From positions 4,330,501-4,394,500 of the forward strand of contig NZ_CP027860.1 of NCBI RefSeq assembly GCF_003015185.1: 64,000 bases of DNA. Direction: 5' to 3'. Below are positions 8,899 to 62,890 of this stretch, piece by piece. This DNA is from Ahniella affigens (GTDB lineage: Bacteria > Pseudomonadota > Gammaproteobacteria > Xanthomonadales > Ahniellaceae). Within the stretch, counting starts at the first letter, position 1. Every line of letters starts with the position of its first letter. The position numbers and the translations under genes were made by a program. The notes below the pieces were generated by a model. That model had not been told where the DNA came from. It saw nothing but the letters and a program-made list of their open reading frames with translations, and did no database searches.

Positions 8899-9029
8899 AT
8901 CGCGTCACCAGCGCAAGACGTGCACGCAAGGCAGCACTGATGCGGATCGAGATGACTTGCGCGACGTCCGGCATCAGCCCGGAATCAGCGTGTACCCCCC
9001 GACTCTGCTCGAACACGCAATAACCAACC

Positions 9030-9390
9030 CCCTCTCCCACGCGAGTGGGAGAGGGCTGGGGAGAGGGCTACTTGCCACAGTGCATCGTGGTGAAAATCGC
9101 GCATCGTCGCTGGCAGTTTGATGCGCGAATAAGCGCACCTTTCGGGGCGACTCCCTCTCCCACGCGAGTGGGAGAGGGATGGGGAGAGGGCTACTTGCGA
9201 CAGTGCACCGTGGTGAAAATCGCGCATCGTCGCTGGCAGTTTGATGCGCGAATAAGCGCACCTTTCGGGGCGACTCCCTCTCCCACGCGAGTGGGAGAGG
9301 GCTGGGGAGAGGGCTACTTGCGACAACTGCGCCGTTTAAGAATCGCGCGTCATCGCTGACAAGTTTGTGCGCGAAAGGCCACACATTTGC
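9030..9390. repeat. 123-bp tandem repeat with a strong palindrome
   Basis: Three units start at 9030, 9153 and 9276, exactly 123 bp apart; the third decays after about 9325. Each begins with the perfect palindrome CCCTCTCCCAC-GCGA-GTGGGAGAGGG, followed by a GGGGAGAGGGCTACTTGC stretch and a common A/T-richer part. Translations of either strand only restate the repeat. It fills most of the 515 bp between the haemoglobin gene and the next gene. No other gene is seen in 8899-9414. Confidence 0.93.
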
Positions 9391-12612: not shown

Positions 12613-13101
12613 GTGAACAAGACCCAAGCAATAATCCTGGCAATCGGAATCAGCCTCGCTGGCAGCGCCGGCGCCTTCATGGCCAAACAGCCCAGCAGCG
12701 CGATTCCAAAAGAATATGCGGCAACCGAATTTAGCGTGATTGCCAATGAAATTCGGATCCAGATGGAACCAGGTGGCCGATATGGCTACGTCCCGAAGAT
12801 CGACCGCCCGAAGATCGAAGAGCAGCTCAACATGATGGCCAGCCTATTGAAGGGTGTGAGTGTCATTGAAGAGCTCAGCGCCGACGACCGCGTCCGCCTG
12901 TTCAATGCTCAAGAACAGGTCAATGGCCTGCTGCTGCAGCATGATGCCAACCGTCTGGTCTGCGAAAAGACCCGAGTCACCGGCAGCCACCGTCCGCGCA
13001 CGGTTTGCATGACATATGCCGAACGCGAAGCCGCACGCGAAGACGCAGCCCGTACGTTCCGGGTGTACAACCGCGGCATCAACCCCGAACCGAACGGCTG
13101 A
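12613..13101 (+). CDS. Secreted C-x14-C paralogue 2 of 4, function unknown
   Basis: A 162-residue protein with signal sequence NKTQAIILAIGISLAGSAGA. The mature domain shows IQMEPGGRYGYVPKIDRP, IEEQLNMMASLLKGV, VRLFNAQEQVNGLLLQ, then CEKTRVTGSHRPRTVC (C-x14-C) and MTYAEREAAREDAA. It is nearly identical in motif to paralogue 3. The start is a GTG at 12613, chosen because GGAGG lies 6 nt upstream; ATG codons further upstream lack a site. A strong terminator follows at 13148. Confidence 0.82.
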   Translation: MNKTQAIILAIGISLAGSAGAFMAKQPSSAIPKEYAATEFSVIANEIRIQMEPGGRYGYVPKIDRPKIEEQLNMMASLLKGVSVIEELSADDRVRLFNAQEQVNGLLLQHDANRLVCEKTRVTGSHRPRTVCMTYAEREAAREDAARTFRVYNRGINPEPNG

Positions 13102-13147
13102 GCCACAACCCTCCAACAGGTTGTCACACTGACCTGCAGGAACCACC

Positions 13148-13682: not shown

Positions 13683-14171
13683 ATGAAACCAGTCAAGACC
13701 ATGTTGTTCGCGATCTGCGTGACCCTGGCGGGCACGTCAGCGGCTTTCACCGCAAAACAACCCGACACAGCGATCCCCAACCAATACGCCGTCAACGAGT
13801 TCAGCACCATTGCTGATGGCATCCGAATCCAGATGGAGCCCGGCGGTCGCTACGCCAACGTTCCCAATATCGATCGCCCACAGATCGAAGACCAACTGAG
13901 TGTGATGGCAAGTCTGCTCAACGGTGTCGCCAGCGTTGAGGACCTGAATCCAACCGACAAGGTACGCCTGTTCAATGCCCAGGAACGCGTCAATAGCCTG
14001 CTGCTTCAGCACGACAACGAGCGCTTGTTCTGCGAGAAAACGCGAGTCACGGGCAGCCACCGCCCGCGCACTGTTTGCATGACCTACGCCGAGCGCGAGG
14101 CCGCCCGCGAATCGGCAGCACGGCTGTTCCGCACTTACGATCGCGGCATCAGCCCGGAGCCGAACGGTTGA
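13683..14171 (+). CDS. Secreted C-x14-C paralogue 3 of 4, function unknown
   Basis: A 162-residue protein with signal peptide (MKPVKTMLFAICVTLAGTSA). The mature part repeats the domain of its neighbours: IQMEPGGRYANVPNIDRP, IEDQLSVMASLLNGV, VRLFNAQERVNSLLLQ, CEKTRVTGSHRPRTVC and MTYAEREAARESAA. It is closest to paralogue 2, so the pair probably arose by a recent duplication. The ATG at 13683 follows GGAG by about 7 nt. The inverted pair GGGTCTGA / TCAGACCC at 13609-13640 lies just before it. Confidence 0.82.
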   Translation: MKPVKTMLFAICVTLAGTSAAFTAKQPDTAIPNQYAVNEFSTIADGIRIQMEPGGRYANVPNIDRPQIEDQLSVMASLLNGVASVEDLNPTDKVRLFNAQERVNSLLLQHDNERLFCEKTRVTGSHRPRTVCMTYAEREAARESAARLFRTYDRGISPEPNG

Positions 14172-14335
14172 TCCTGGACGCGGTGCCAAGGACGGCACCG
14201 AACGGTTGAATCCGGGGCCTGGCCCCAAGCGCCCCTTCCGCATTGGCGATCCGTGCGCATGCATGACTGCAGTAGGATGCGCGGCTCTGGGTTCCGCCTT
14301 TATGATCGGGGTTCACTTCCCGATCTGGCAGACTG

Positions 14336-22624: not shown

Positions 22625-23500
22625 GTGTTGCAGGCGGGCCTTCAGGCCCGAACCTATCTTGCTGCAAGATCCATTCGCGGCTGAAGCCGCTCCCACAAAA
22701 ACCATCGTTCCAAACCACACTTGCGGCAAGGTCGGTTGCCTTTTTGTAGGAGGGCCTTCAGGCCCGAACCAGTCTCGCCGCAAGATCCATTCGCGGCTGA
22801 AGCCGCTCCCACAAAAACCACCGCCTTGAACCATTCTTGCCGCAAGATCACCTACTGCTTGTAGGAGGGCCATAAGGCCCGAACCAATCTTGCCGCAAGA
22901 CCCATTCGCGGCTGAAGCCGCTCCCACAAAACCCTTGTTCCAAACCACACTTGCGGCAAGGTCGGTTGCCTTTTTGTAGGAGGGCCTTCAGGCCCGAACC
23001 AGTCTTGCCGCAAGATCCATTCGCGGCTGAAGCCGCTCCCACAAAAACCATCGTTCCAAACCACACTTGCGGCAAGGTCGGTTGCCTTTTTGTAGGAGGG
23101 CCTTCAGGCCCGAACCAGTCTCGCCGCAAGATCCATTCGCGGCTGAAGCCGCTCCCACAAAACCATTGTTCCAAACCACACTTGCGGCAAGGTCGGTTGC
23201 CTTTTTGTAGGAGGGCCTTCAGGCCCGAACCAGTCTTGCCGCAAGACCCATTCGCGGCTGAAGCCGCTCCCACAAAAACCAGTGTTCCAAACCACACTTG
23301 CGGCAAGGTCGGTTGCCTTTTTGTAGGAGGGCCATAAGGCCCGAACCAGTCTTGCCGCAAGATCCATTCGCGGCTGAAGCCGCTCCCACAAAAACCCTTG
23401 TTCCAAACCACACTTGCGGCAAGGTCGGTTGCCATTTTGTAGGAGGGCCTTCAGGCCCGAACCAAGCTCGCCGCAAACCCAAATTCGCAGCCAAAAGCCA
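22625..23500. repeat. Array of eight 115-bp repeats with two palindromes per unit
   Basis: Seven full units begin with TGTAGGAGGGCC at 22745, 22860, 22975, 23091, 23206, 23322 and 23438, spaced 115 or 116 bp; a first degenerate unit starts near 22625 and the last is cut. Each holds a GGGCCTTCAGGCCC palindrome, a GCGGCTGAAGCCGC palindrome before CTCCCACAAAA, and a TTGCGGCAAGG segment. Some copies have CATAAGG in place of CTTCAGG with the palindrome broken or shifted. Frames open across it only translate the repeat. It fills the whole space between the TraB and the next gene. Confidence 0.95.
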
Positions 23501-27826: not shown

Positions 27827-28346
27827 TGACCATTCTGGACATAATGACCATTCTGACAGACCATTCTGGACAGGCACCAACCCGAGTGGGCGAGCCTGAG
27901 CTACTTGACGAAAGGAGTACCTCTCGAAACGTTCAAAACTCCAGAGTGCAAGCCAGGACCACGAGCTAGCCATCTCCAAGTAATGGCTAGCCCCAAACAG
28001 ACCATTCTGGACAGGCACCCGGACCATTCTGGACAGGCACCAACCCGAGTGGGCGAGCCTGAGCAGAGGCAAGCCCGGACAGAGGGCAAGTCCGGAGAGG
28101 GCAAGTCCAGACACGCACTAATTCATGGCACCGAACGAGAGGCAAGTCCGGACACGCACCAATTCATGGCACCGAAGAATAAGCGCGACCAAACGTTGCG
28201 GTTAGCCGCCGGCTTTCAGGTATCAAACCTAGCTCGTCTTTGGGCAAGTCCGGACACGCACCAATTCGTGGCGCCGCAGAAGAAGCGCAAGCAATCGTTT
28301 CGGCTTGCCGCCGGCTTTCAGGTATCAAACCTAGCTCGTCTTTGAG
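27827..28346. repeat. Cluster of GGACA-type repeated words and a 102-bp direct repeat
   Basis: The motif GACCATTCTGGACAGGCACC occurs at about 27859, 28002 and 28021, with a 40-bp direct repeat that continues into CAACCCGAGTGGGCGAGCC. From 28061 the related GGCAAGTCCGGACACGCACC word takes over. Units 28142-28242 and 28243-28344 are a roughly 102-bp direct duplication. No credible gene is present; the 985-bp space 27610-28595 holds only these words and unremarkable DNA up to the transposase stop. Confidence 0.85.
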
Positions 28347-28595: not shown

Positions 28596-29567
28596 TCAGA
28601 ATGCCAACGCCTGTCGATACACCTTCCGGGCCAACTGATAGCCAACCAGCCAACGTCGCCCGGTGTCCGCTGCGAATTGAATCAGGCGATCGAGTGCGCC
28701 CAGTGCCGACACTCTGGCTTCGCCAAAGCCTCGCACTTGCTGATCCCATTGATCCGGATCGATTTTGAGCGCCATCATGATTGGCCGCACTTCGTCTGAG
28801 ATTCGTCCGGGCTTTCCTTGGTGCCAGTGGCGGCCAGTAAAGTCCGCCAGCAGAAGGTAACTTTGGCTGGACAAGCTTAGCCCTCCCTGCTTAATTCCCG
28901 CGATCGATTCAAGTGGGTGCTCGGCCAAAGGCGCTTCTGCTCCAATCTGAGCGATTCGGCGCTGCGCACTCGTGTGCTTCGAGCTCGGGAGGTCGGTCGC
29001 CATCTTGGCCCGAATCGGATTAAGGTCCGCATACACCATGGCCGCCAACAGCGCCCGCTCGTCGACCAATGCTTGCGCCTTGAATCGACCCTCCCAGAAC
29101 CGACCGGTGCAGCCGTCTTCCCTATTCGCCTGCCGAGCAATCGGTTCAACCAGACTCTTCATGAACCAACTCAAGTTCCGAAGTCGATCGCGATATTCAG
29201 CAACTAGTTCCGGCGCCGCGGCGATATTCACGATTCGAGTCTTCTGCGAACCCGGATCACCAGAACCAGGAAACGCCTGACACCATCGGACCGCGACTTC
29301 TTCATCAGACCAACCCGCAGCGGCACTCGCATCAATCTTAAGGACCACGTGCAGATGATTGCTCATCACCGCATAGGCATAGATCGAGACCGAGTAGACC
29401 TCGGCTAACATCAACAATCGCTCTTCGATCAATTCTCGACGATGTTCGTAGTCGATGCCGGTCAAGGGATCAACGCCGCACAGCCAAGCACGCCGAACAC
29501 AGCGACTGACGCAGTGATAGTAACCAGTGCAATTCGGTGGAACCGTTCGTTCGCGGGCTTGGGGCAT
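28596..29567 (-). CDS. REP-associated tyrosine transposase (RAYT, IS200-like)
   Basis: A 323-residue member of the Y1/HUH transposase family, RAYT branch. Visible are the N-terminal YYHCVSRCVRRAWLCG, the HUH metal motif in AVMSNHLHVVLKID, the RLRNLSWFMKSL region carrying the conserved helix before the catalytic Tyr, and CTGRFWEGRFKAQALVDERALLAAMVYADLNPIRAKMA. RAYTs nick and join single-stranded DNA at REP hairpins. The frame is intact. TTCTGAATTGGT occurs in inverted copies at both ends (the stop-codon side and about 29658), and an ATTTCTGAG/CTCAGAAAT hairpin lies just upstream (29635-29656). Confidence 0.92.
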   Translation of the reverse strand: MPQARERTVPPNCTGYYHCVSRCVRRAWLCGVDPLTGIDYEHRRELIEERLLMLAEVYSVSIYAYAVMSNHLHVVLKIDASAAAGWSDEEVAVRWCQAFPGSGDPGSQKTRIVNIAAAPELVAEYRDRLRNLSWFMKSLVEPIARQANREDGCTGRFWEGRFKAQALVDERALLAAMVYADLNPIRAKMATDLPSSKHTSAQRRIAQIGAEAPLAEHPLESIAGIKQGGLSLSSQSYLLLADFTGRHWHQGKPGRISDEVRPIMMALKIDPDQWDQQVRGFGEARVSALGALDRLIQFAADTGRRWLVGYQLARKVYRQALAF

Positions 29568-29690
29568 GTTGAGCGCCTTCCGTGGCGGGGTTTTCGACTA
29601 ATTCTTGCTCCACCACTGGCCGAGCGCATTGGCGGATTTCTGAGATTTGCCTCAGAAATTTCTGAATTGGTGCGTGTCCGCTATTGCCGC

Positions 29691-29979
29691 AAGCGGAGCT
29701 GACCGGGCGCGTCATAGATCGACAAGCTACCTAACGACAGCGCGCATCTGCGGAACCAGTAGCCGATCACTGGCGCGCCAAGACCATCGCATCCATCGGG
29801 GGACGTTGTCCCCCTTCTTATGGGCACCACGCTATGACGCCAGTGCCGACGAGGCTACGATGCAAACTTGGTCGGGGCACGAAAATCGTGCGACGCAAGA
29901 GTGGGAAAACAGGCCAAATCCTCACAAAATCGTACGCTGCCAATTTGGCACGAAATGCGATGGGAGTGAGGTGCGCTAC
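29691..29979 (+). repeat. 289-bp ExeA-end element, copy 1
   Basis: It begins with the last codons and stop of an ExeA-like ATPase gene (AAGCGGAGCTGA) and continues through a fixed noncoding part: a GGGGGAC/GTCCCCC hairpin followed by TTCTTAT, then a G/A-rich stretch ending GTGCGCTAC. The rest of the ATPase gene is absent. It lies 82 bp beyond the stop of immunity gene 1. Copies 2 and 3 are at 33702 and 34348. The 5' side (29568-29690) holds only the RAYT upstream hairpin. Confidence 0.88.
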
Positions 29980-30061
29980 ATCGTGTCCGCTATTATTCGC
30001 TCATAGGGTCTACTGACCTAAGCTGATGCGTGTCCCTTCTCACCGAAGGAATTTCTTGGTG

Positions 30062-30496
30062 TCATGGTTTCCCACAATCGCTCGAATGTCGAGCCTGTGG
30101 CTGCAAACTGAGCAGTGCATCCAAGAGTTTAGATAAGTCAGTGTTTGCGGCCACACAGAATTCTGGATCGTTTACGCGAAACCATTCCCGCCCGGCTGCA
30201 CTCGAACGTTCAGGACGCTGATCAAGCTTAGAGGGATAGATGGCATACTGTCTGGAAATCCCCGAGCGCATGAGTGTCCATTCGGTACGCCCGGAGTAGA
30301 CCTGAAGCGCTCGCTCGAAGAGATCTTGAAATTCCGCTTCCTTTTCAACGCAAACACGGACAACTATCAGGGGCGGATATCGAAGTCCGCTGAGAGACAT
30401 TGGCGAAACACGGAACCACGTGATCATGCGACGAGCACTGAGTTCTTTGGTCAGGAGCCACGCTGCAGAAGGTCGAAGTTCACTGGCATCAATCAT
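30062..30496 (-). CDS. Candidate immunity protein for the papain-fold RHS toxin
   Basis: A 144-residue cytoplasmic protein with no recognised family, starting right at the stop of RHS toxin gene 1: TGATG, where the ATG shares a base with the stop. AAAGGA lies 8 nt upstream. Contents include a Trp-rich start (SAAWLLTKELSARRMITWFRV), a hydrophobic strand (LIVVRVCVE) and a basic-acidic middle. Position directly after a polymorphic-toxin tip is the usual place of the cognate immunity gene, so the role is inferred from context only. A 289-bp element follows at once. Confidence 0.68.
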   Translation of the reverse strand: MIDASELRPSAAWLLTKELSARRMITWFRVSPMSLSGLRYPPLIVVRVCVEKEAEFQDLFERALQVYSGRTEWTLMRSGISRQYAIYPSKLDQRPERSSAAGREWFRVNDPEFCVAANTDLSKLLDALLSLQPQARHSSDCGKP

Positions 30497-32994
30497 CACA
30501 TTGGTCCTTTACGGAGTCTCTTGGTCTTGTCGCTTGGATCGAGGAGCCGGTGCGATATCCCACTTGGATTAGCCGACCTCATAGATCTAACATAGTCCTT
30601 CTTTGAAAAAGGCGCCTTCGAAACGAAGGGATCGTAAATGTATACCCCGTCCGAGTAGACGCTATGGTAGGCGAATCCCGAGTCATCAATTGAATTCGGA
30701 AGCATGAGAGCCTCCCTATTTCCTTGTCCCATCACGCTATCATAGTTGCTCGGCCAGTCCATGTTCCGCGGCCCCATCACTACGATTTCTCCACTTCCGC
30801 CGTTCGCTTGCATTAATTGCTCCGCGTAGTCGGTGCAATAGACATCACAAGGATCCGAACTTAGGTAATGAGTTCTCAATTCCGCAAGCCTCGTTGATGC
30901 TGCCTCGCTTGGCCCTTGACTGCCTGGCAGTGCCTCACGCTTCGTCGATGCGGCTGGCTGCGCTTCGCCCTCGACACTGACTCTTATCTTGAATGCACGG
31001 GGAGAGCTTTGCGAAGTCAAAGGCGCAATTGACGAACCTTCAATCTCGGGAAAGTCTCCTCTCCTAGCCATAAGCGGAGGCATCATCTCATTGTCGACTG
31101 CGCCAACGCGACGGATACTCCCTGCCATCGAACTTACTTCGCGCCCAGCCGATCCGGTCAACCGCGCGATACCGACGCCGCCGCTTCGTATTAGTGACGC
31201 AGCCCCCGTCGCACCTGACGCAACATCAAGCCCAACGCCCATGCTGATTCTTGCAGCCGCTCGATAGTCGCCGGCCGCTAGTGCGGCATCTGCCGCAGCC
31301 ATGCGACGCCCGAGATTGTCGCCAATCGCATCGATCGGATTGTTCGCTAGAAAGCGGTATACCGCGTAGGAACGATCCTCAAGCTTGGCGTCACCGCCCG
31401 TGTCCACCAAACCGAAGGTCTGATACTTGATCTGTGCACTATGCACTTCTGATCCTAGTTCCAACAAAGAAGCCGCTGTTTCGACAGCGAATTCTTGAAT
31501 CGCGTCGGCTCTGCCAGCCTTTTCTTGAATGTTCCGTTGAATCATGGCGTCGGCTCGGGCAATGTCTTCCGACCGATTCATTTGACCCCGAATCAATGCG
31601 AGGTCAGCTCCGAACGAATCTCGCCCGCGGCGCCCATCCGGATCCACAAACACCACCGGACTCCCATTCCCATACAAGTACTTGTTGAACGTAATCGGTC
31701 GATTCACATCGCCGTTGGCGGGATCGCTGCTGTTGAACTGGCCGAGGATCGGGTCATACCAACGGGCATTGGCGTAGTAGAGGCCCAGGTCTTGGTCTTT
31801 CTGGTAGCCGGTATAACCGATGCTTTGCTGGTCGTTGCTGACCAGGTTGGCTTGGCCGGATAGGCGCGGGTTGCTGTTGGCGTCAGCACTGCTGCCGGGC
31901 GCGCTGCTCTGGCCGTTGGCGGTTTGCTTTTCGGTATTGCCCCAGGCGTCGAGCGTGTTCGACACGACCGGATCACCCTGGCTGTCGCTGATCACGACCG
32001 GGGTGTTCAGGGCGTCGAGTTGATAAAAGTGGATGTTGGCCTGGGGATTGTTGCTGCCGCCGCCATTGCCGCTTGGGGCAAAGCGGATATGGCGATCGAG
32101 CTTGGCACCGTAGCGATAGCTGTCGGTGATCTTCAGGCCGTCGGCGTTCGGGGTTTGCGTGGCCGCGCTGCCGGGAATCGCCTCATGCAATAGGTTCAGG
32201 CCTTCGCGAAGCTCATAGGTCACACTCGCCGAAGCCGGCTGCGGTTGGCCATTCAGCCAAGGCGTTTCAATCCGGGCAACTTTCTGGTCTTCAGCGTCGT
32301 AGACAAACTGCAGCGTCGGGGCGTTCTGGCTGTTCGGTACGTCGGGCTCGGCCTTGATCAGCCGATCCCTGGCATCGAAGGTGTAGGTGGTCGCATTGAC
32401 CAGTACCAAGGGCAGACCGCGCCAGAGCTCGCGTCGTGTGCGATTGCCATAGCCGTCATATTGATACCGAACCTCCAGCTGGTTGACCGGATCCACCACC
32501 CGTGTCAACTGATCGCGCTCGTTGTAGGTAAATGTCTTCTGACTCAGCACCACGTTGTCAGACCAACGTGTGACGGTTTCTGAAAGGCGATTGCCGACGC
32601 CATCCAAGGCCCAAGTGGTGTAGGTATCTGGATTGGCGGCGTCTGGTGGCGACTGCGATTCTAAGGCTTGAACCAGACGATCATCGTGGTCGTAGTTATA
32701 GATCGTTTGACGGCTTCGGGCCGACTGGCCCGGCAGCGCCGCTTCGGTTCGCGTTTCGCCAATGCGATTTCCATTGCTGTCGTAGTTGTACTGGAGCGTG
32801 AGCGTGGCAACACTGTTCTTGCTGTAAGCAATCTGCGTGAGCCGCTTGGCCGAGTCGTACTGCCAGAAGCTCTCCACGCCGTTGCTGTGATTGATCGACT
32901 CCAATCGGCCATCCGTCCGCCAGCTCATGCTGCTCAAGCCATCATTGCTCGACGCCGCCAACACGCGGTTAGCTTCGTCAAACGTCTGCGTCAT
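30496..32994 (-). CDS. RHS protein, 5'-truncated, with papain-fold toxin tip
   Basis: An 832-residue open frame from the first ATG, but RHS coding continues open to about 33090, where it is cut by an ExeA-type ATPase sequence, so the N-terminal part of the RHS shell is missing. YD repeats (YDxxGNRxxE, RDQLTRVVD) run to the core end DLGLYYANARWYDPILGQF and the cleavage-type motif NPVVFVDPDGR equivalent (GSPVVFVDPDGRRG). A linker of about 180 residues follows, almost the same as in the second RHS gene. The C-terminal 110 residues have CDVYCTDYAEQL, then AYHSVYSDGVYIYDPFV: Cys, His and Asp as in papain-fold toxins. Expression is uncertain without a start region. Confidence 0.85.
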   Translation of the reverse strand: MTQTFDEANRVLAASSNDGLSSMSWRTDGRLESINHSNGVESFWQYDSAKRLTQIAYSKNSVATLTLQYNYDSNGNRIGETRTEAALPGQSARSRQTIYNYDHDDRLVQALESQSPPDAANPDTYTTWALDGVGNRLSETVTRWSDNVVLSQKTFTYNERDQLTRVVDPVNQLEVRYQYDGYGNRTRRELWRGLPLVLVNATTYTFDARDRLIKAEPDVPNSQNAPTLQFVYDAEDQKVARIETPWLNGQPQPASASVTYELREGLNLLHEAIPGSAATQTPNADGLKITDSYRYGAKLDRHIRFAPSGNGGGSNNPQANIHFYQLDALNTPVVISDSQGDPVVSNTLDAWGNTEKQTANGQSSAPGSSADANSNPRLSGQANLVSNDQQSIGYTGYQKDQDLGLYYANARWYDPILGQFNSSDPANGDVNRPITFNKYLYGNGSPVVFVDPDGRRGRDSFGADLALIRGQMNRSEDIARADAMIQRNIQEKAGRADAIQEFAVETAASLLELGSEVHSAQIKYQTFGLVDTGGDAKLEDRSYAVYRFLANNPIDAIGDNLGRRMAAADAALAAGDYRAAARISMGVGLDVASGATGAASLIRSGGVGIARLTGSAGREVSSMAGSIRRVGAVDNEMMPPLMARRGDFPEIEGSSIAPLTSQSSPRAFKIRVSVEGEAQPAASTKREALPGSQGPSEAASTRLAELRTHYLSSDPCDVYCTDYAEQLMQANGGSGEIVVMGPRNMDWPSNYDSVMGQGNREALMLPNSIDDSGFAYHSVYSDGVYIYDPFVSKAPFSKKDYVRSMRSANPSGISHRLLDPSDKTKRLRKGPM

Positions 32995-33089
32995 GGCGAC
33001 GGCGGTCGCATCCTGAGCCTGTAGACGATTGCCATTGGCATCCAGGCCAAACTTGAACCGCGCTTCAAAGTTGCTCAGCGCCGCATTGA

Positions 33090-33713
33090 GTGATCGTCTC
33101 GTTCACGCAAACCCTGCACACTTATCAGCCGATCCTCAGGCTGCTGGCTGAATCCATGCAAGTCACCGCGCCGATGAAAGACATCGAAAAAGAGCTGGTG
33201 CAAGCGGCCTATCGGCACGTACAATCGCAGAAGACGCTGACCATCGTCATTGATGATGCGCACTTGCTCGATGTTGGCATCCTGCGGCGCTTGCGGCTTC
33301 TGTTTGAACGCTTCCCGAAGAAGCACAGCTTGGTCCTGCTGGGTCATCCGGAACTGCTGCATCGTCTGTCGATGATGTGCAATGAGGACATCAAGAGCCG
33401 GATCAGTTACTCCAAACAGATCCTGCCACTGCATGATGCCGACCTCATCGCCTTCATCATCGCCGAACTCGCTGCGGTTGGCTTAGGCGCCAACACCTTC
33501 GACGAGGCCGCCTTGCAGGTCATCGCCCGCGCCGTTCAAGGCAACCTACGACTCTGCCGCAACCTCGCCCAAGCCAGCCTCATCGCCGCCTGCCTCGATC
33601 ACCAACGCATCGTCACCGTCAACCACGTCAACACCGCCTTGCTTCAACCACACTGGCGATCGCACGAGGCGTTGATCAAGCAACAGGTCAAACCTGAACC
33701 CAAGCGGCGCTGA
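33090..33713 (+). pseudogene. ExeA/TniB-type AAA ATPase, 5'-truncated
   Basis: About 207 residues of the C-terminal part of an ExeA/MuB/TniB-like AAA ATPase, the helper ATPase found next to DDE transposases or as secretion ATPase ExeA. Walker B (LTIVIDDAHLL) and the sensor-like VLLGHPELLHRL are present, then a helical C-terminal domain (FDEAALQVIARAVQGNLRLCRNLA). The Walker A region and the first hundred residues are missing, replaced by the truncated RHS gene on the other strand. No transposase partner is seen in the window. Confidence 0.82.
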
Positions 33714-33990
33714 CCGGGCGCGTCATCAATCAACGAGCAACCTAACGCCAGCGCGCATCTGCGGAACAAGTAGTCGGAAACCGGCGCGCCAGAACCATCG
33801 CAACCATCGGGGGACTTTGTCCCCCTTCTTATGGACAACACGCTATGACGCCAGTGCCGACGAGGCTACGATGCAAGCTTGGTCGGGGCGTGAAAATCGT
33901 GCGATGCCAAAATGGGAAAACAGGCCCAATCCTCAAAAAATCGTACGCTGCCAATTTGGCACGAAATGCGATGGCAGTGAGGTGCGCTAC
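33702..33990 (+). repeat. 289-bp ExeA-end element, copy 2
   Basis: Same element as at 29691 and 34348, here attached to the longest ATPase remnant. It starts at AAGCGGCGCTGA (the ATPase stop) and ends GTGCGCTAC. The GGGGGAC-TTT-GTCCCCC hairpin is perfect. Confidence 0.92.
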
Positions 33991-33991
33991 A

Positions 33992-34359
33992 ATCCGGAAC
34001 TGCTGCATCGTCTGTCGATGATGTGCAACGAGGACATCAAGAGCCGGATCAGTTACTCCAAACAGATCCTGCCACTGCATGATGCCGACCTCATCGCCTT
34101 CATCATCGCCGAACTCGCTGCGGTTGGCTTAGGCGCCAACACCTTCGACGAGGCCGCCTTGCAGGTCATCGCCCGCGCCGTTCAAGGCAACCTACGACTC
34201 TGCCGCAACCTCGCCCAAGCCAGCCTCATCGCCGCCTGCCTCGATCACCAACGCATCGTCACCGTCAACCACGTCAATAACGCCTTTCTTCAACCACACT
34301 GGCGATCGCACGAGGCGTTAATCAAGCAACAGGTCAAACCTGAACCCAGGCGGAGCTGA
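33992..34359 (+). pseudogene. ExeA/TniB-type ATPase, second C-terminal fragment
   Basis: Duplicate of the last 120 residues of the upstream ATPase remnant, from PELLHRLSMMCNED to the stop. It is fused in frame to the end of element copy 2, which is not true coding sequence. Differences from the first fragment are few (VNNAFLQ for VNTALLQ, RRS for KRR end). Confidence 0.85.
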
Positions 34360-34636
34360 CCGGGCGCGTCATAGACCGAAGAGCTACCTAACGCCAGCGC
34401 GCATCTGCGGAACAAGTAGTCGAACACTGGCGCGTCAAGACCATCGCAACCATCGGGGGACTTTGTCCCCCTTCTTATGGACAACACGCTATGACGCCAG
34501 TGCCGACGAGGCTACGATGCAAGCTTGGTCGGGGCGTGAAAATCGTGCGATGCCAAAATGGGAAAACAGGCCCAATCCTCAAAAAATCGTACGCTGCCAA
34601 TTTGGCACGAAATGCGATGGGAGTGAGGCACGCTAC
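34348..34636 (+). repeat. 289-bp ExeA-end element, copy 3
   Basis: Third copy, ending 22 bp beyond the stop of immunity gene 2. The placement mirrors copy 1, which ends 82 bp beyond the stop of immunity gene 1. It begins at the ATPase stop (AGGCGGAGCTGA) and ends GGCACGCTAC. Confidence 0.92.
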
Positions 34637-34658
34637 AGATACACTTGATAAAGGACAC

Positions 34659-35144
34659 TCAGGAATGTCTTGATTGTTGGGAGTCCTTCATTGCGTGTTT
34701 GGCTGCCTCAACCCATACAGGTCGACGAGGCAGTGCATTACCGCATAGAGGGCAGCCAACAACTCTTCTATTCCACGCTCTGTCGAATGCAGCTTCTGGA
34801 TCTGGCGTACCGAAATACAGAGCAGGTTCTGCCGCAAGCGCAATGAGACCTGCCCATCCACAATGCTTGCAGGTGTCCCTTTCCACATGAACCCGAATCC
34901 ACTCGGAATCATATTTGTAGAGTATTACTGCCCCCCACTTTTTTAGCCTCCCCCTCCTATCGAGGCCGAAACAGAACTCGTTCTGATGGGAGGCGACGAA
35001 CTCCAATTCATGAGCGCCCGACGCAACGAAGGATGGCGAGATATCTCTATCCAGAAAGGGCATTCCTGCTCTCACAATCTCCCAAGCGTCGGATTCAAGC
35101 ACGTATACCTTGGCACAATCAATTTCTAGTTCTTTATGACCCAT
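34659..35144 (-). CDS. Candidate immunity protein for the ART-like RHS toxin, zinc-ribbon type
   Basis: A 161-residue protein 20 bp after the stop of RHS toxin gene 2. It has two CxxC pairs (CKHCGW and CPLCGN, about 45 residues apart) that can form a zinc ribbon, with an acidic start (ELEIDCAKVYVLESDAWEIV). I do not know the family. The ATG at 35144 is preferred because GAAGGTGA lies upstream; a TTG at 35162 is possible. The immunity role is inferred from position behind a toxin tip. It has no similarity visible to immunity gene 1. Confidence 0.68.
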   Translation of the reverse strand: MGHKELEIDCAKVYVLESDAWEIVRAGMPFLDRDISPSFVASGAHELEFVASHQNEFCFGLDRRGRLKKWGAVILYKYDSEWIRVHVERDTCKHCGWAGLIALAAEPALYFGTPDPEAAFDRAWNRRVVGCPLCGNALPRRPVWVEAAKHAMKDSQQSRHS

Positions 35145-35164
35145 ACTGGCAATCACCTTCAAAT

Positions 35165-37234
35165 CTAAAGTTGCCCGGGAAGCTTCACTCGACTCAATCT
35201 ATTTGTGCCACCGATGATAACGTATTCGCTCTCCCCAGCGCCTTCAAGAGTCTGTTTGAGCAGCTCCGATCGAGGAACCAGGCCCCCAAACACATTGCCA
35301 TCCTTAGCGTACGTCGCTGCCACCTGTGGGTCAGTCGTAACGGACATCAAAGTCCTCGGAATACCGTACTCACGCTGAAGCTCAGTTCCTTTCGATGAAT
35401 GCGCCTCTATGTAGGCACGATCGCTTCCCATAGCCTCAATCCACTGTTGGTGCAGTGCCTGTGCTGTTGCATAGGCATCATCGATATCACCTCCATTTTC
35501 TAGAAGCGACCTGATTGCTGCGTCACTCATTAAGTGCCCAGTCTCGTCAAAAACTTGAATTTCCGTGCCCCTGTTTGTCCCGCGATAGACATAGACATAA
35601 TCCCCGCCATCTGGCGACGATGTAGGCTCCACCACTGTTGCAGCGAGACCAGATTGGCTGTCACCAGTACCGCTTAGTTTTGCTGATGTACCTACTTCCG
35701 GAAAATCCCCACTCTTCGGCATATACGGCGGCATCATCTCGTTCTCAACAGCACCGATGCTGCGAAGGCTGCTTGCCATCGATCCAACTTCTTCAGTTGC
35801 GGCTGCAGTGATTCTTGCGATGCCAACAGCACCGCCCCTGATCAGAGACGCGGCTCCGGTGGCGCCTGACACAACATCGAGTTCGACGCCCATCCTGATC
35901 CGGGTAGCCGTCCGATAGTCACCCTCCGCTTGCGCAATGCTTGCTTGCGCCATTCGGCGTCCGATGTTCTCGCCGATCGCATCGATCGGGTGGTTTGCCA
36001 AGAAGCGATGCATTGCGTAGGAGCGATCCTCAAGTTTCGCATCGCCTCCTGTATCGACGAGTCCGAGAGTCTGGTACTTGACTTGTGCGCTATGCACTTC
36101 GGCTCCAAGCTCTAGCGTTGCTGTAAAGGATTCGGTTGCGAAGTGTTGTATCGCATCCGCTTTCCCGGCGTTCTCCAACATATTTCGCTCAATCAGCGCG
36201 TCTACCTGCTTGATTTCGCTCGGATCCGAGAGTTGGTTTCGAGACTGCAAGAGGGTGCAGGCAACACTGTCGCAACCCTTGCGTCCATCCGGATCCACAA
36301 ACACCACCGGATTCCCATTCGCATACAAATACTTGTTCAGCGTAATCGGCCGACCGGTATCGCCCGTCCACGGATCCATCGCCCCAAACCCACCAATCAG
36401 CGGGTCATAGAACCGCGCGCCGGCGTAGTACAGGCCGAGGTCTTCGTCCTTCTGGTAGCCGGTGAAGCCGATGGTTTGGTTGTCGTTCTTCAGCAACGCC
36501 GCCTGACCCGTCTGATTTGGGTCCTGGCTTTGATTGCCGGAGTTGATTGGCGCGGTGCTTTGGCCCTGTGCGGTCTGTTGGATCGTGTTGCCCCACGCAT
36601 CCACGGTGTTGCTGACAATGGCTTGGCCACTCGCGTCGGTCAGGATCAGCGGGGTGCCGAGGGCATCGAGTTGGTAGAAGCGGATGGTCGGTGTATCGGT
36701 ACCGTTGGGCCCGAACGACACATGCCGGTCCAGCTTGGCGCTGTTGCGGTAGGTGTCGGTGATGATCAGGCCTTGGCTGTTGCTGGTGCCGCCGGAACCG
36801 GGTTTGGCTTCGTGCAGCAGGGTTTGGCCGTCATAGAGGCTGACGGTGGCTTGGGCATTGGCTTGAACGGGGTTGCCATTGAGCCAAGGCGTTTCGATGC
36901 GGGCGATCTTGCGATCTTCGGCGTCGTAGACGAACTCGACGGTCGGGATGTTGGTGAGGTTCGGTGCTTCGGGTTCGGCTTTGATCAGGCGATCGCGGGC
37001 ATCGAAGCGGTAGAACGTGCGGCTGACCAAGGTATTGCCGGGGCCACGGGTGACGGTACGTTGCGTGCGGTTGCCGTTGAGGTCGTAGCCATACACCACG
37101 CGCAATTGCGTCACGCTGTCGGTGACGGTTTCCAGCTGATCGCGGGGGCTGTAGGTGTAGATCTTGCTGTTGAGCGCTTGGTTCGTCTGGGTATTCGTGA
37201 CGACTTCGGTCAGGCGGTTGCCGACCCGGTCCAA
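35165..37234 (-). CDS. RHS protein, 5'-truncated, with ADP-ribosyltransferase-like toxin tip
   Basis: A 689-residue frame starting at a TTG within the YD-repeat region; RHS coding is open to about 37352, then meets a stop, so the N-terminal shell is absent. YD repeats lead to LGLYYAGARFYDPLIGGF and NPVVFVDPDGRKG. A linker nearly equal to that of the first RHS gene follows (EVHSAQVKYQTLGLVDTGG, GATGAASLIRGGAVGIARI, AVENEMMPPYMPKSGDFPE). The last 150 residues carry VYVYRGTNRG, SVTTDPQVAATYA and ESEYVIIGG: Arg, Ser-Thr and Glu-x-Glu marks of an R-S-E class mono-ADP-ribosyltransferase. Target unknown. Probably silent unless transcribed from outside. Confidence 0.84.
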   Translation of the reverse strand: MDRVGNRLTEVVTNTQTNQALNSKIYTYSPRDQLETVTDSVTQLRVVYGYDLNGNRTQRTVTRGPGNTLVSRTFYRFDARDRLIKAEPEAPNLTNIPTVEFVYDAEDRKIARIETPWLNGNPVQANAQATVSLYDGQTLLHEAKPGSGGTSNSQGLIITDTYRNSAKLDRHVSFGPNGTDTPTIRFYQLDALGTPLILTDASGQAIVSNTVDAWGNTIQQTAQGQSTAPINSGNQSQDPNQTGQAALLKNDNQTIGFTGYQKDEDLGLYYAGARFYDPLIGGFGAMDPWTGDTGRPITLNKYLYANGNPVVFVDPDGRKGCDSVACTLLQSRNQLSDPSEIKQVDALIERNMLENAGKADAIQHFATESFTATLELGAEVHSAQVKYQTLGLVDTGGDAKLEDRSYAMHRFLANHPIDAIGENIGRRMAQASIAQAEGDYRTATRIRMGVELDVVSGATGAASLIRGGAVGIARITAAATEEVGSMASSLRSIGAVENEMMPPYMPKSGDFPEVGTSAKLSGTGDSQSGLAATVVEPTSSPDGGDYVYVYRGTNRGTEIQVFDETGHLMSDAAIRSLLENGGDIDDAYATAQALHQQWIEAMGSDRAYIEAHSSKGTELQREYGIPRTLMSVTTDPQVAATYAKDGNVFGGLVPRSELLKQTLEGAGESEYVIIGGTNRLSRVKLPGQL

Positions 37235-37355
37235 CGTCCAGACCGTTCGCGTGTTCGGGGTTTGTGGATTCGCTGGCGTATACGTAACTTCCGCAGACGT
37301 CAGGCGGTCGTCACTGTCGAAACCATAGTGCGTGTCGACCGTGCGCGTCGAACCT

Positions 37356-37665
37356 AATCATGTCACGAAGAGGCGCCCCACGCTGCGAAACCCCCGTTCG
37401 GCGCGATGGGCTGCGTCTATTGCGCCATACGGACCGATAGCTCTTGTTACGGGACAAACTATGTTCTTGACCTTGTGCGCGAAAACCTAAGATACCTTCC
37501 AGAACATACAGGGCATCCATGATGATGATGGTAGAAGCGATGCGTTTCACAATAGACGCCATTGTTTGGATCACACGCGTCGTCTGAAATTAGGGCGGTT
37601 CCTTCTATGACGAATTCAGGGAGACTGGCAAGCAATGCGGGCAGATCATCCCACCCCCGACCTGA
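37356..37665. other. Intergenic, degenerate palindrome, no gene
   Basis: The 310 bp upstream of the truncated RHS gene 2. It contains a GGCGCGAT/ATTGCGCC palindrome near 37400-37427, similar to the REP-like units at 26971-27114. No coding frame with a ribosome site is seen. Confidence 0.5.
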
Positions 37666-38064: not shown

Positions 38065-39804
38065 ATGCACCGTGGTGACGCAGTTTCCGTAAATGCTGAT
38101 TCGATCAATATATCTGAGCAAGAATTGGCGCCAATTGGAATCTCCAACGCGTCAATCTGCTGGGCGCGTTGGCTACCCGATCGACGACTGGAAGCGGCAG
38201 GTACTCAGCAATACAGCCACTTGATCGTCTCACCGTTTGACATTACCTCATGGCCGGCGCTTTTCAATATTCGGCTCGTTCTAGATGATCGATCAGGGTC
38301 CCTCCAACGTGCACTCGCAGTTCTCTTAAATTGCAACCTAAACGTTCTCAGCATTGAAGGAACTCAAGCCGGACACCGGCATGCCGCGATAAATATTATT
38401 GGCGAAGCCATTGAACTGAAATCCTCACCGGCGATCTCAAGATTTGCGAACGGGGTCCTGGATGAAAATCGAACCTTTCTAAACTCCGATACTCGGGAGC
38501 ACGTTCACCAGCACTTCGCGCCAATGATGTTGCTGTTCGCGGACGAGCTGAAGGCCAAACTCTACGCCGGGCATGGTAAAGAGCACTTCTTAAGAACATC
38601 CTACGACTTTTCCACGGCAGGCAAGAGCGATCAAGTTCGCGGGACGCTCTATGATCCCGCTGAATTACCAGAGAATGTGCGCGACTTAGGATTTCGGCAC
38701 GCTCCACATGCAGTTAAGTGTGAGTGGATGCAGAGCCATGCGTTCTTTTGGCTTTACGGTAAGGGCGACCCGAGCCAGCGTATTATGCATTTCGATGCGA
38801 ACCAACGTTCGCTGCGGCCGGACGAAGACTGGCTGCAAGAATTTCGAAGTCAGGTCGAGAGCATTAAACCGCCATTCAGTACCGTTGCGACGATCAACTT
38901 TCTGGAGCAGTACCTGCGCGTAGCATTTTCACAGGCTGATCGACTCGGCAGCACTTACATTATGAAGACGCCCTATTCAGCCACCTATCAGACTCGTGAT
39001 AGTACAAAGGGATTGCTGTGTTCGGTAGTGTCGGAGATATCAGAGAGCAAGATAGGCATTCGAAGCGTTCAGATGTCAACTCAAGCAAAGGGCACGAGCT
39101 CTGAAGAGGGGACATTCACGTTTCTTGCGGACGCGAGAGTCATACCAGGGACATCGTCCACCAGAGTAGAGGCACTTAACGAACTTGCCGAAAGAGGCTT
39201 TGATGCGGCAACTTCAAGACTCCACCAACAAGGGTGTGAACTACAGCGAAAGCCATTCAGCATAGATCGCTTTGGGTCAAGAACGCTATTCTTGTCAGTC
39301 AACTTCGATTGGATGTTAAAGAGCAGGACTGATCTGCTTGGCCAAATTAAGCGCCTTGCCATTGAGTTCGGATTTGTTCTGGTTCTCGCCCACGACGACC
39401 ATGTCCCGCCGTTCCTCGCTCCGCTCTGGAAACCCAGAGCGAGAATTACAGAGAATATTCTCGGCTTGATCAGCGCGTGCGACGGCTTTTTGCAAATTCT
39501 CTCTGCAAACGTTTCGCCAAGCGCCAGACAAACGTCGCCCGAGACGCCGGCAAGCGCAGGCTGGCTGCTCTTCGAGTCCGGTGCGGCCAATGCCCTTCAG
39601 AAGCCATGTGAAGTTTGCTTCGACAGTTCAGTAAAGTGGGACGAAGGCCAATTTAACGAACGCCTAGGTACAGAAGCCGGTCGCGTAGTGACTATGTTCG
39701 ACGGCAATAGTAGTGACAAGGACGTTACAAATTCGATCCGGAATGCCGTTGCTAGAATACACAAGCAATGTGTCGAGAGAAGCACAAAGTCCGCAAAACC
39801 GTAA
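38065..39804 (+). CDS. Candidate defence protein: ACT-like N-terminus, TIR-like C-terminus
   Basis: A 579-residue cytoplasmic protein. About residues 66-115 have the beta-alpha-beta pattern of an ACT small-molecule sensor (LFNIRLVLDDRSGSLQRALA, NLNVLSIEG, HAAINIIGE). The middle (120-400) is not recognised. Residues 406-560 have a Rossmann-like TIR pattern: RTLFLSVNFDW, GFVLVLAHDDH, ILGLISACDGFLQIL and GWLLFESGAANALQKP, where Glu504 sits at the place of the TIR NADase glutamate. TIR effectors in bacteria deplete NAD or make signal nucleotides during phage attack; a role in defence is inferred. The ATG at 38065 follows GGGGGAA. A+T content is higher than in the core genes, which suggests transfer. 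Confidence 0.7.
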   Translation: MHRGDAVSVNADSINISEQELAPIGISNASICWARWLPDRRLEAAGTQQYSHLIVSPFDITSWPALFNIRLVLDDRSGSLQRALAVLLNCNLNVLSIEGTQAGHRHAAINIIGEAIELKSSPAISRFANGVLDENRTFLNSDTREHVHQHFAPMMLLFADELKAKLYAGHGKEHFLRTSYDFSTAGKSDQVRGTLYDPAELPENVRDLGFRHAPHAVKCEWMQSHAFFWLYGKGDPSQRIMHFDANQRSLRPDEDWLQEFRSQVESIKPPFSTVATINFLEQYLRVAFSQADRLGSTYIMKTPYSATYQTRDSTKGLLCSVVSEISESKIGIRSVQMSTQAKGTSSEEGTFTFLADARVIPGTSSTRVEALNELAERGFDAATSRLHQQGCELQRKPFSIDRFGSRTLFLSVNFDWMLKSRTDLLGQIKRLAIEFGFVLVLAHDDHVPPFLAPLWKPRARITENILGLISACDGFLQILSANVSPSARQTSPETPASAGWLLFESGAANALQKPCEVCFDSSVKWDEGQFNERLGTEAGRVVTMFDGNSSDKDVTNSIRNAVARIHKQCVERSTKSAKP

Positions 39805-62423: not shown

Positions 62424-62434
62424 GTGTTTGCTGT

Positions 62435-62890
62435 TGAAGATTGCCCATCCTGGGCAACTTCAACTCGCAAGTCCGGCACAGGTCCGGACTTGCTCTCGCC
62501 GGCGGCATCGCTTGCGCGATGTCGTCGCGGGTGCACCATCCATGGTGCACTCGGTTCGCCACCTTTTGGGTGGCTTGGTAGCTGCTCGTGAAGATTGCCC
62601 ATCCTGGGCAACTTCAACTCGCAAGTCCGGCACAGGTCCGGACTTGCTCTCGCCGACGACATCGCTTGCGCGATGTCGTCGCGGGTGCACCATCCATGGT
62701 GCACTCGGTTCGCCACCTTTTGGGTGGCTTGGTAGCTGCTCGTGAAGATTGCCCATCCTGGGCAACTTCAAGTCGCGTATCTGGCACGTGTCCAGGTCCG
62801 CTCTCGCCGACAACATCGCTTGCGCGATGCCGTCGCGGGTGCACGATCCTTTGTACACACCGTTCGCTGCTTTTGGCAGCGGATTATTCG
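62435..62890. repeat. Three 154-bp repeats made of tiled hairpins
   Basis: Units start at 62435, 62589 and 62743, exactly 154 bp apart; the third is diverged. Each unit holds, in order: TTGCCC-ATCC-TGGGCAA, GCAAGTCCGG-CACAGGT-CCGGACTTGC, CATCGC-TTGC-GCGATG, GTGCACC-ATCC-ATGGTGCAC and GCCACC-TTTTGG-GTGGC. In the third unit the second stem is changed and its loop reads CACGTGT. The array fills the 470 bp between tRNA-Lys and tRNA-His. No gene is present. Confidence 0.92.

Follow-up and report, generated by a model that had tools for sequence, protein, structure and literature searches.

The window analyzed here, 64,000 nucleotides of Ahniella affigens contig NZ_CP027860.1 (positions 4,330,501 to 4,394,500 of the forward strand), carries on its minus strand two incomplete RHS genes, RHS1 and RHS2, that share the end of their core and the linker that follows it but end in different putative toxin domains (tips 1 and 2), each followed by a small gene (imm1 and imm2). 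We read them as the decayed 3' ends of two anciently diverged tandem RHS genes of one family, each with its tip and immunity gene, and give this reading a probability of about 0.7. A preliminary description of the same DNA, made without database searches, had interpreted the two loci as polymorphic toxins, which is right in kind.

In both frames the Rhs-associated core domain (TIGR03696) scores above its curated cut-off (Table 1). Over residues 123-683 of RHS1 the two proteins are identical at 336 of 561 positions (60%, BLASTP), and BLASTN aligns window positions 31046-32386 and 35697-37013 in 1358 columns with 66% DNA identity. The linker, defined as the stretch after VDPDGR through GDFPE, has 194 residues in each, somewhat more than the 180 or so first described. 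As had been noticed, similarity stops at GDFPE: the BLASTP alignment ends one residue later, tip 1 and tip 2 have no meaningful match (best E 1.4), and the small genes directly behind them are unrelated to each other (best E 0.64). The second half of the published core-end motif DPXG-(18)-DPXG (PMC2935791) is DPDG in both, and the first half reads DPANG/DPWTG. The 5' truncation that had been reported for both is also borne out, because the two frames start within the core, without a start or an N-terminal export part, and are therefore fragments. A third RHS core remnant, absent from the preliminary description, shows 78% identity with the beginning of RHS2 across 37 residues and 40% with RHS1 across 52 residues.

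Table 1. Features of the RHS loci and of the adjoining transposable-element debris (window coordinates)
Feature	Position	Strand	Remarks
RHS1 frame	33102 to 30496	minus	open; RHS sequence recognizable from near 33090
RHS2 frame	37357 to 35165	minus	open; stop at 37358-37360
RHS1 core, 5'-truncated	31627..33090	minus	TIGR03696 60.8 bits (cut-off 32.5)
RHS2 core, 5'-truncated	36278..37357	minus	TIGR03696 66.3 bits (cut-off 32.5); PF03527 31.6 bits (cut-off 27.9)
RHS1 core end PVVFVDPDGR	31630..31660	minus	contains 27-bp exact run 31634-31660 common with RHS2
RHS2 core end PVVFVDPDGR	36281..36311	minus	contains 27-bp run 36285-36311
RHS1 linker, 194 residues, ends GDFPE	31045..31626	minus	66% identity to RHS2 linker
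RHS2 linker, 194 residues, ends GDFPE	35696..36277	minus	66% identity to RHS1 linker
Tip 1, predicted papain-like Cys-His-Asp toxin domain, 182 residues	30496..31044	minus	HMM 60.8 bits, triad, fold, structure matches
imm1, probable immunity gene of tip 1	30062..30496	minus	41.5 bits against HMM of nine partner ORFs
Tip 2, ART-like by motif	35165..35695	minus	YRGT, SVTT, ESEY at tip residues 37, 118, 155
imm2, putative immunity gene of tip 2	34659..35144	minus	position only
Third RHS core remnant, 52 codons	40177..40332	minus	similarity to RHS2 start and RHS1
AAA ATPase gene of transposable element, 5'-truncated	33090..33713	plus	AAA_22 37.8 bits; PHROG "DNA transposition protein" E 4.8e-13
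646-bp tandem pair, 97% identical	33346-33991 and 33992-34637	plus	each closes at the element's right end
Third copy of 291-bp right end	29690..29980	plus	90-92% to the other two; 82 bp from imm1 stop
HMM, hidden Markov model; ORF, open reading frame; ART, ADP-ribosyltransferase.

No recent swap or duplication is visible because synonymous sites are near or at saturation and the DNA identity is only 66%. By the Nei-Gojobori method, the core has a proportion of synonymous differences (pS) of 0.65 (synonymous distance dS 1.5) and a nonsynonymous distance (dN) of 0.39, and the linker has a saturated pS of 0.82 and a dN of 0.26. With an amino acid identity of 66% compared with 58% for the core, the linker protein is more tightly constrained than the core, though its silent sites are randomized. 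The GC content at third codon positions (GC3) is 0.73 and 0.775 in the cores of RHS1 and RHS2, respectively, and 0.67-0.75 in seven large resident ORFs of the window; the values are lower further on, with 0.55 and 0.59 for the linkers, 0.54 and 0.47 for the tips and 0.49 and 0.47 for the immunity genes. The difference between core and linker was reached in 0 of 20000 amino-acid-controlled permutations for RHS1 and RHS2 alike, compared with P values of 0.43 (RHS1) and 0.02 (RHS2) for linker against tip and of 0.26 and 0.004 for linker against tip plus immunity gene. The AT-richer region begins at the core end, with the GC3 break at VDPDGR in both copies, in agreement with published Rhs genes, for which the available text describes a GC-rich core that closes at DPXG and is followed by AT-rich tips (PMC2935791).

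The longest exact DNA run common to RHS1 and RHS2 is at the same place. It measures 27 bp and encodes PVVFVDPDG; the next longest is 14 bp, and there is no long run at GDFPE. In simulations that redraw codons from the RHS genes' own usage, a run of at least 27 bp arose in 0.26% of 5000 trials with core plus linker usage (P 0.0026) and in 0.4% of 4000 trials with core-only usage (P 0.004). Among the loci examined, the 20-bp heart of the run is present only in those covering RHS1 and RHS2. Recombination may have left the 27-bp run behind, or tight constraint may have preserved it. The composition joint and the long identical DNA are thus both found where the core closes with PVVFVDPDGR, and GDFPE, 194 codons further downstream, marks the end of amino acid similarity. 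Of the cassette exchange at a fixed linker boundary that had been proposed, the different ends behind a common core and linker are retained, but GDFPE is replaced by PVVFVDPDGR as the boundary in composition and DNA, and the exchange is old.

The preliminary description had also suggested an apparent store of displaced tips, in which laterally acquired tips would have pushed older ones downstream of a full-length RHS gene through homologous recombination in the core, leaving them available for reloading. Dissociated or orphan Rhs tips are described in Enterobacteriaceae (Jackson 2009, PMC2935791; Poole 2011, PMC3150448; Koskiniemi 2014, PMC3967940), and as far as the available portions of these papers go, the likeness is considerable: a core fragment without a start or export part, a boundary at the DPXG core end, a variable tip, a small downstream gene and AT-rich ends. 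A row of such truncated units resembles the dissociated tips of PMC2935791 and PMC3150448, and the 27-bp run could be a recombination trace. Against this, DNA and profile searches of the genome (two contigs, 100% estimated completeness) detected no full-length RHS gene with this linker, an outcome that the preliminary description had itself named as refuting its reading; the linker occurs at only two places, RHS1 and RHS2. Nine places in the genome have an Rhs core above the cut-off; the other seven are without the linker, and their similarity to RHS1 is either weak and confined to the core or absent. The sheath marker VipB/TssC (PF05943) of the type VI secretion system (T6SS), a single marker whose control matched in E. 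coli, was not found in the genome. RHS proteins can use routes other than the T6SS. In published displaced-tip loci the cores inside one locus "were always identical", according to the available text (PMC2935791), and a Salmonella case has 95% in common over 522 bp (PMC3967940), as compared with 66% between the cores here; the shared 194-residue linker downstream of the core end is a further difference from the orphan tips as the available text describes them. Because no parent gene was found, the core DNA is only 66% identical and VipB was not detected, we prefer decayed tandem paralogues and consider a store unlikely. As a separate observation, two RHS-core genes at G000:C1 171618 and 1984777, with open frames of 4455 and 4468 residues, have near-identical core ends and different tails.

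Outside RHS1 and RHS2 the linker was found neither in 100 relatives, where the own genome was the sole match, nor in plasmids; in the genome_contigs set, searched with two peptide patterns only, none of 103 pattern stretches was confirmed. It may be commoner than these searches can detect. The restricted occurrence of the linker in the searched genomes, the deep divergence of RHS1 from RHS2 and the mobile-element debris around them would also fit the separate acquisition, from different donors and with no local ancestor, of two cassettes that each comprised a core fragment with its linker, tip and immunity gene. The core GC3, however, equals that of the resident ORFs, and the closeness of the third remnant to RHS2 points to a local family, which makes an origin from different donors quite improbable.

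RHS1 adjoins remains of a transposable element. At about 33090, where RHS1 is broken off at its 5' side, it meets a fragment of the element's AAA ATPase gene in head-to-head orientation, and all three copies of the element's DNA stop at the same right end (29980, 33991 and 34637), the nearest positions to imm1 and imm2 being 82 bp and 22 bp from their stops. Matches to the element in the genome are confined to these three places (40 of 52 candidates scored). Among 72,556 plasmid records a single one matches, pUKW01 of Undibacterium sp. KW1, with 74% DNA identity to the ATPase fragment; it contains nested copies in which a DDE transposase is encoded along with the ATPase and a small ORF. On the two sides of the inner copy, a 2288-bp left part and a 1057-bp right part have an overlap of 5 bp, an arrangement that reads as one copy inserted into another with a 5-bp duplication. 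Only 43 bp separate the pUKW01 array, in which right ends are again nested, and the stop of an SMI1/KNR4 immunity gene adjoining a HINT toxin, and together with the distances at imm1 and imm2 this might suggest that the element targets and shapes toxin-immunity loci. A further pUKW01 copy is in or beside a carbohydrate-binding-protein gene, so that the data do not establish any preference of the element for immunity genes, and since only two genomes with close copies were found, the proximity may be coincidence; we regard such targeting as very improbable. More distant relatives of the ATPase, about 22-34% identical and probably other AAA proteins, are present in 69 of 101 genomes and were not found in viral contigs. 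Relatives of the element's transposase are present in 5 of 398 genomes at E <= 1e-20.

Tip 1 belongs to a small family that is consistently accompanied by a partner gene. Relatives were found in 1 of 72,556 plasmids, in 1 of 368 other genomes of the class and at seven loci of genome_contigs, and none was found in viral contigs. These nine (L017, L019 and L020-L026) represent about seven independent cases because L020 and L026, and the Nocardia pair L023 and L025, are near-duplicates by eye; the L026 copy diverges from the others ahead of its end. An HMM built from the nine gives tip 1 a score of 60.8 bits, compared with at most 6.2 for 1000 shuffled sequences. In 9 of 9 relatives an ORF of 129-157 residues, picked by position alone, has its start in the span from 4 bp ahead of the tip end to 52 bp beyond it, and imm1 matches the HMM of these partners with 41.5 bits (best of 1000 imm1 shuffles, 6.6) and the L017 and L019 genes pairwise with E values of 1.5e-7 and 7e-4 in a six-sequence set. 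In the seven loci scanned with Pfam (all but L021 and L025), carriers are recognized by hemagglutinin repeats in L019 and L020 and by RHS repeats in L017, with an RHS match just under the cut-off in L024 and no carrier match in L022, L023 and L026. The retention of tip and partner together on such varied carriers, in what appear to be very different bacteria, strongly suggests a toxin-immunity pair, as had been proposed on the strength of the polymorphic-toxin literature, and tip 1 is predicted to be toxic. The sequence context points to ATG 30496, which overlaps the stop of RHS1, as the most likely start of imm1, the first in-frame start being GTG 30499. Downstream of the module lies a Y1/REP-type transposase-like gene (28596-29567, minus strand; NF047646 36.8 bits, cut-off 80), and a gene downstream of the module in L017 (2400-2924, plus strand) is, we presume from inspection by eye, similar to the same type of transposase. 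An Alkalilimnicola contig (L021, 923-4104) has an apparent row of tip and small-gene pairs, one of which belongs to the tip-1 family; the others were recognized by eye.

The papain-like character first suggested for tip 1 accords with the alignment and the model. A Cys, a Tyr-His and an Asp are conserved in 10 of 10 alignment rows (C31, H88 and D99 in row A4), and a model built from a seven-row alignment has a predicted local distance difference test score (pLDDT) of 76.8 and a predicted template modeling score (pTM) of 0.78. In the VIA-align comparison, rows 1-20 are taken up by NTAQ1, protein-glutaminases and SseI, and other thiol enzymes come after them. The scores are modest: NTAQ1 matches with a best Z of 6.8 and a root mean square deviation of 3.6-3.9 over 115 aligned residues (13-16% identity), and the protein-glutaminases with Z values of 5.3-5.8 (10-12% identity). 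For orientation, NTAQ1, with the triad Cys28-His81-Asp97, matches protein-glutaminase at a DALI Z of 7.0 (PMC4214742, from the available text). Family searches gave weak, non-significant Pfam matches to PF18626 Gln_deamidase_2 (best E 0.13) and PF19890 DUF6363 (best E 0.094), each in two of seven members, and no papain-fold-toxin family among the matches of these seven at E <= 1. NCBIfam yielded no significant match and one chance match to an aminotransferase, PHROGs a family of unknown function (E 0.077), a PDB profile search unrelated proteins and PADLOC nothing. Most likely, tip 1 is a papain-like cysteine enzyme of the protein glutamine amidohydrolase or peptidase type, with the amidohydrolase as our first guess and the peptidase as our second.

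Within the text available, human NTAQ1 and bacterial protein-glutaminase resemble tip 1 in their papain-like fold and Cys-His-Asp residues (PMC4214742); tip 1 is shorter and toxin-carried, and the identities are low. Tox-PL1/2/3, Tox-PLC39 and Tox-PLDMTX (Zhang 2012, PMC3482391) and Cpe1 (PMC12136450), in the parts of these reports at hand, are likewise C-terminal Cys/His/Asp toxins that are borne by RHS and CdiA-type proteins and followed by an immunity gene. The comparison with Tox-PL, made by profiles and description rather than by direct sequence alignment, gave no significant Pfam or NCBIfam match, and Cpe1 is reported to be closest to ComA/LahT (C39 type), in contrast to tip 1, which is nearest to NTAQ1 and protein-glutaminase. 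We tentatively suggest, with more doubt than confidence, that tip 1 and imm1 represent an undescribed interbacterial family, a compact NTAQ1/protein-glutaminase-like enzyme that would deamidate glutamine in a protein of the target bacterium and that moves with its antidote among RHS, CdiA-type and actinobacterial carriers. No literature was found on Rhs papain-like deamidase toxins or interbacterial T6SS glutamine deamidases, and the tip-1 family may still have been published. If the suggestion is true, the family adds an uncurated pair of toxin and antidote whose chemistry is predicted to be the modification of glutamine.

Judged from its motifs, tip 2 is probably an ADP-ribosyltransferase, and imm2, judged from its position, is probably the antidote. 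The ART motif consists of R, then S-x-T/S, then E-x-E, and tip 2 has YRGT, SVTT and ESEY in this order, so that the motif part of the original ART-like assignment stands; a single-sequence model is not usable (pLDDT 36.5), and no relative was found in plasmids, viral contigs, phages or the overlapping sets of 369 class, 398 phylum and 254 order genomes. A match at E 0.0067 inside a 411-residue frame of genome G848, which we take to be a dipeptidase, was rejected as chance. The best match among PDB sequences (E 0.31) is unrelated, and Pfam contains no family match at E <= 10. Among described toxins, Tox-ART-RSE (Zhang 2012, PMC3482391, from the available text) comes closest. Tip 2 has an Arg, an S-x-T-T and an E-x-E in the expected order and is set apart by yielding neither a Pfam match nor a relative. 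For imm2, profile scans gave no family above the cut-off, and relatives were not found in plasmids or viral contigs; its C-terminal half has, by eye, two Cys pairs. Its sequence context makes ATG 35144 the most likely start, over TTG 35162, the first in-frame start.

The course of events that we propose for the decayed paralogues would begin with two tandem full-length RHS genes of one family, together with a third copy of which a shred is left. Two joints would be present in each: at the core end VDPDGR, a core of resident composition gives way to a cassette that is richer in AT and comprises the linker, tip and immunity gene, and at the linker end GDFPE, differing toxin domains follow the common linker. 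Insertions of the transposable element and deletions would then have removed the 5' end of RHS1, and some other event that of RHS2. In the intact genes, tip 1 would modify proteins of a competing bacterium with imm1 as the antidote, and tip 2 would act as an ADP-ribosyltransferase neutralized by imm2. Without the N-terminal export part the toxin parts would be silent today, and the immunity genes may still be made. Several points weigh against this account. For dead genes, the intact frames of RHS1 (865 codons) and RHS2 (730 codons) are long, and they would fit kept modules too; no intact ancestor of either gene was seen, so that the tandem full-length genes are a proposal; and in RHS2 the composition changes a second time, to a smaller extent, from the linker to the tip plus imm2 (P 0.004). 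As to the enzymes, Z values under 8 can reflect a common arrangement, a Foldseek search with tip 1 gave nothing at E <= 0.001 (the best being a protein glutaminase, E 0.042), and the support for tip 2 comes solely from its motifs. Two implications extend beyond this locus: the end of an RHS gene can be built of modules that join at two places, one where the core stops and one where a private linker stops, and a series of truncated tips is not necessarily a store of displaced ones, for which the core DNA identity and the parent gene need checking first.

Elsewhere in the window, a 579-residue ORF (38065-39804, plus strand) between RHS2 and the third RHS remnant has only sub-cut-off matches, including flagellar and ACT-domain families, and no PADLOC match. 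Tandem arrays are present at 22628-23491, 9027-9375, 62429-62876 and 28141-28344, with periods of about 115, 123, 154 and 102 bp, respectively, and positions 12654-13104 and 13724-14174 form a diverged direct repeat of 452 bp that is 72% identical.

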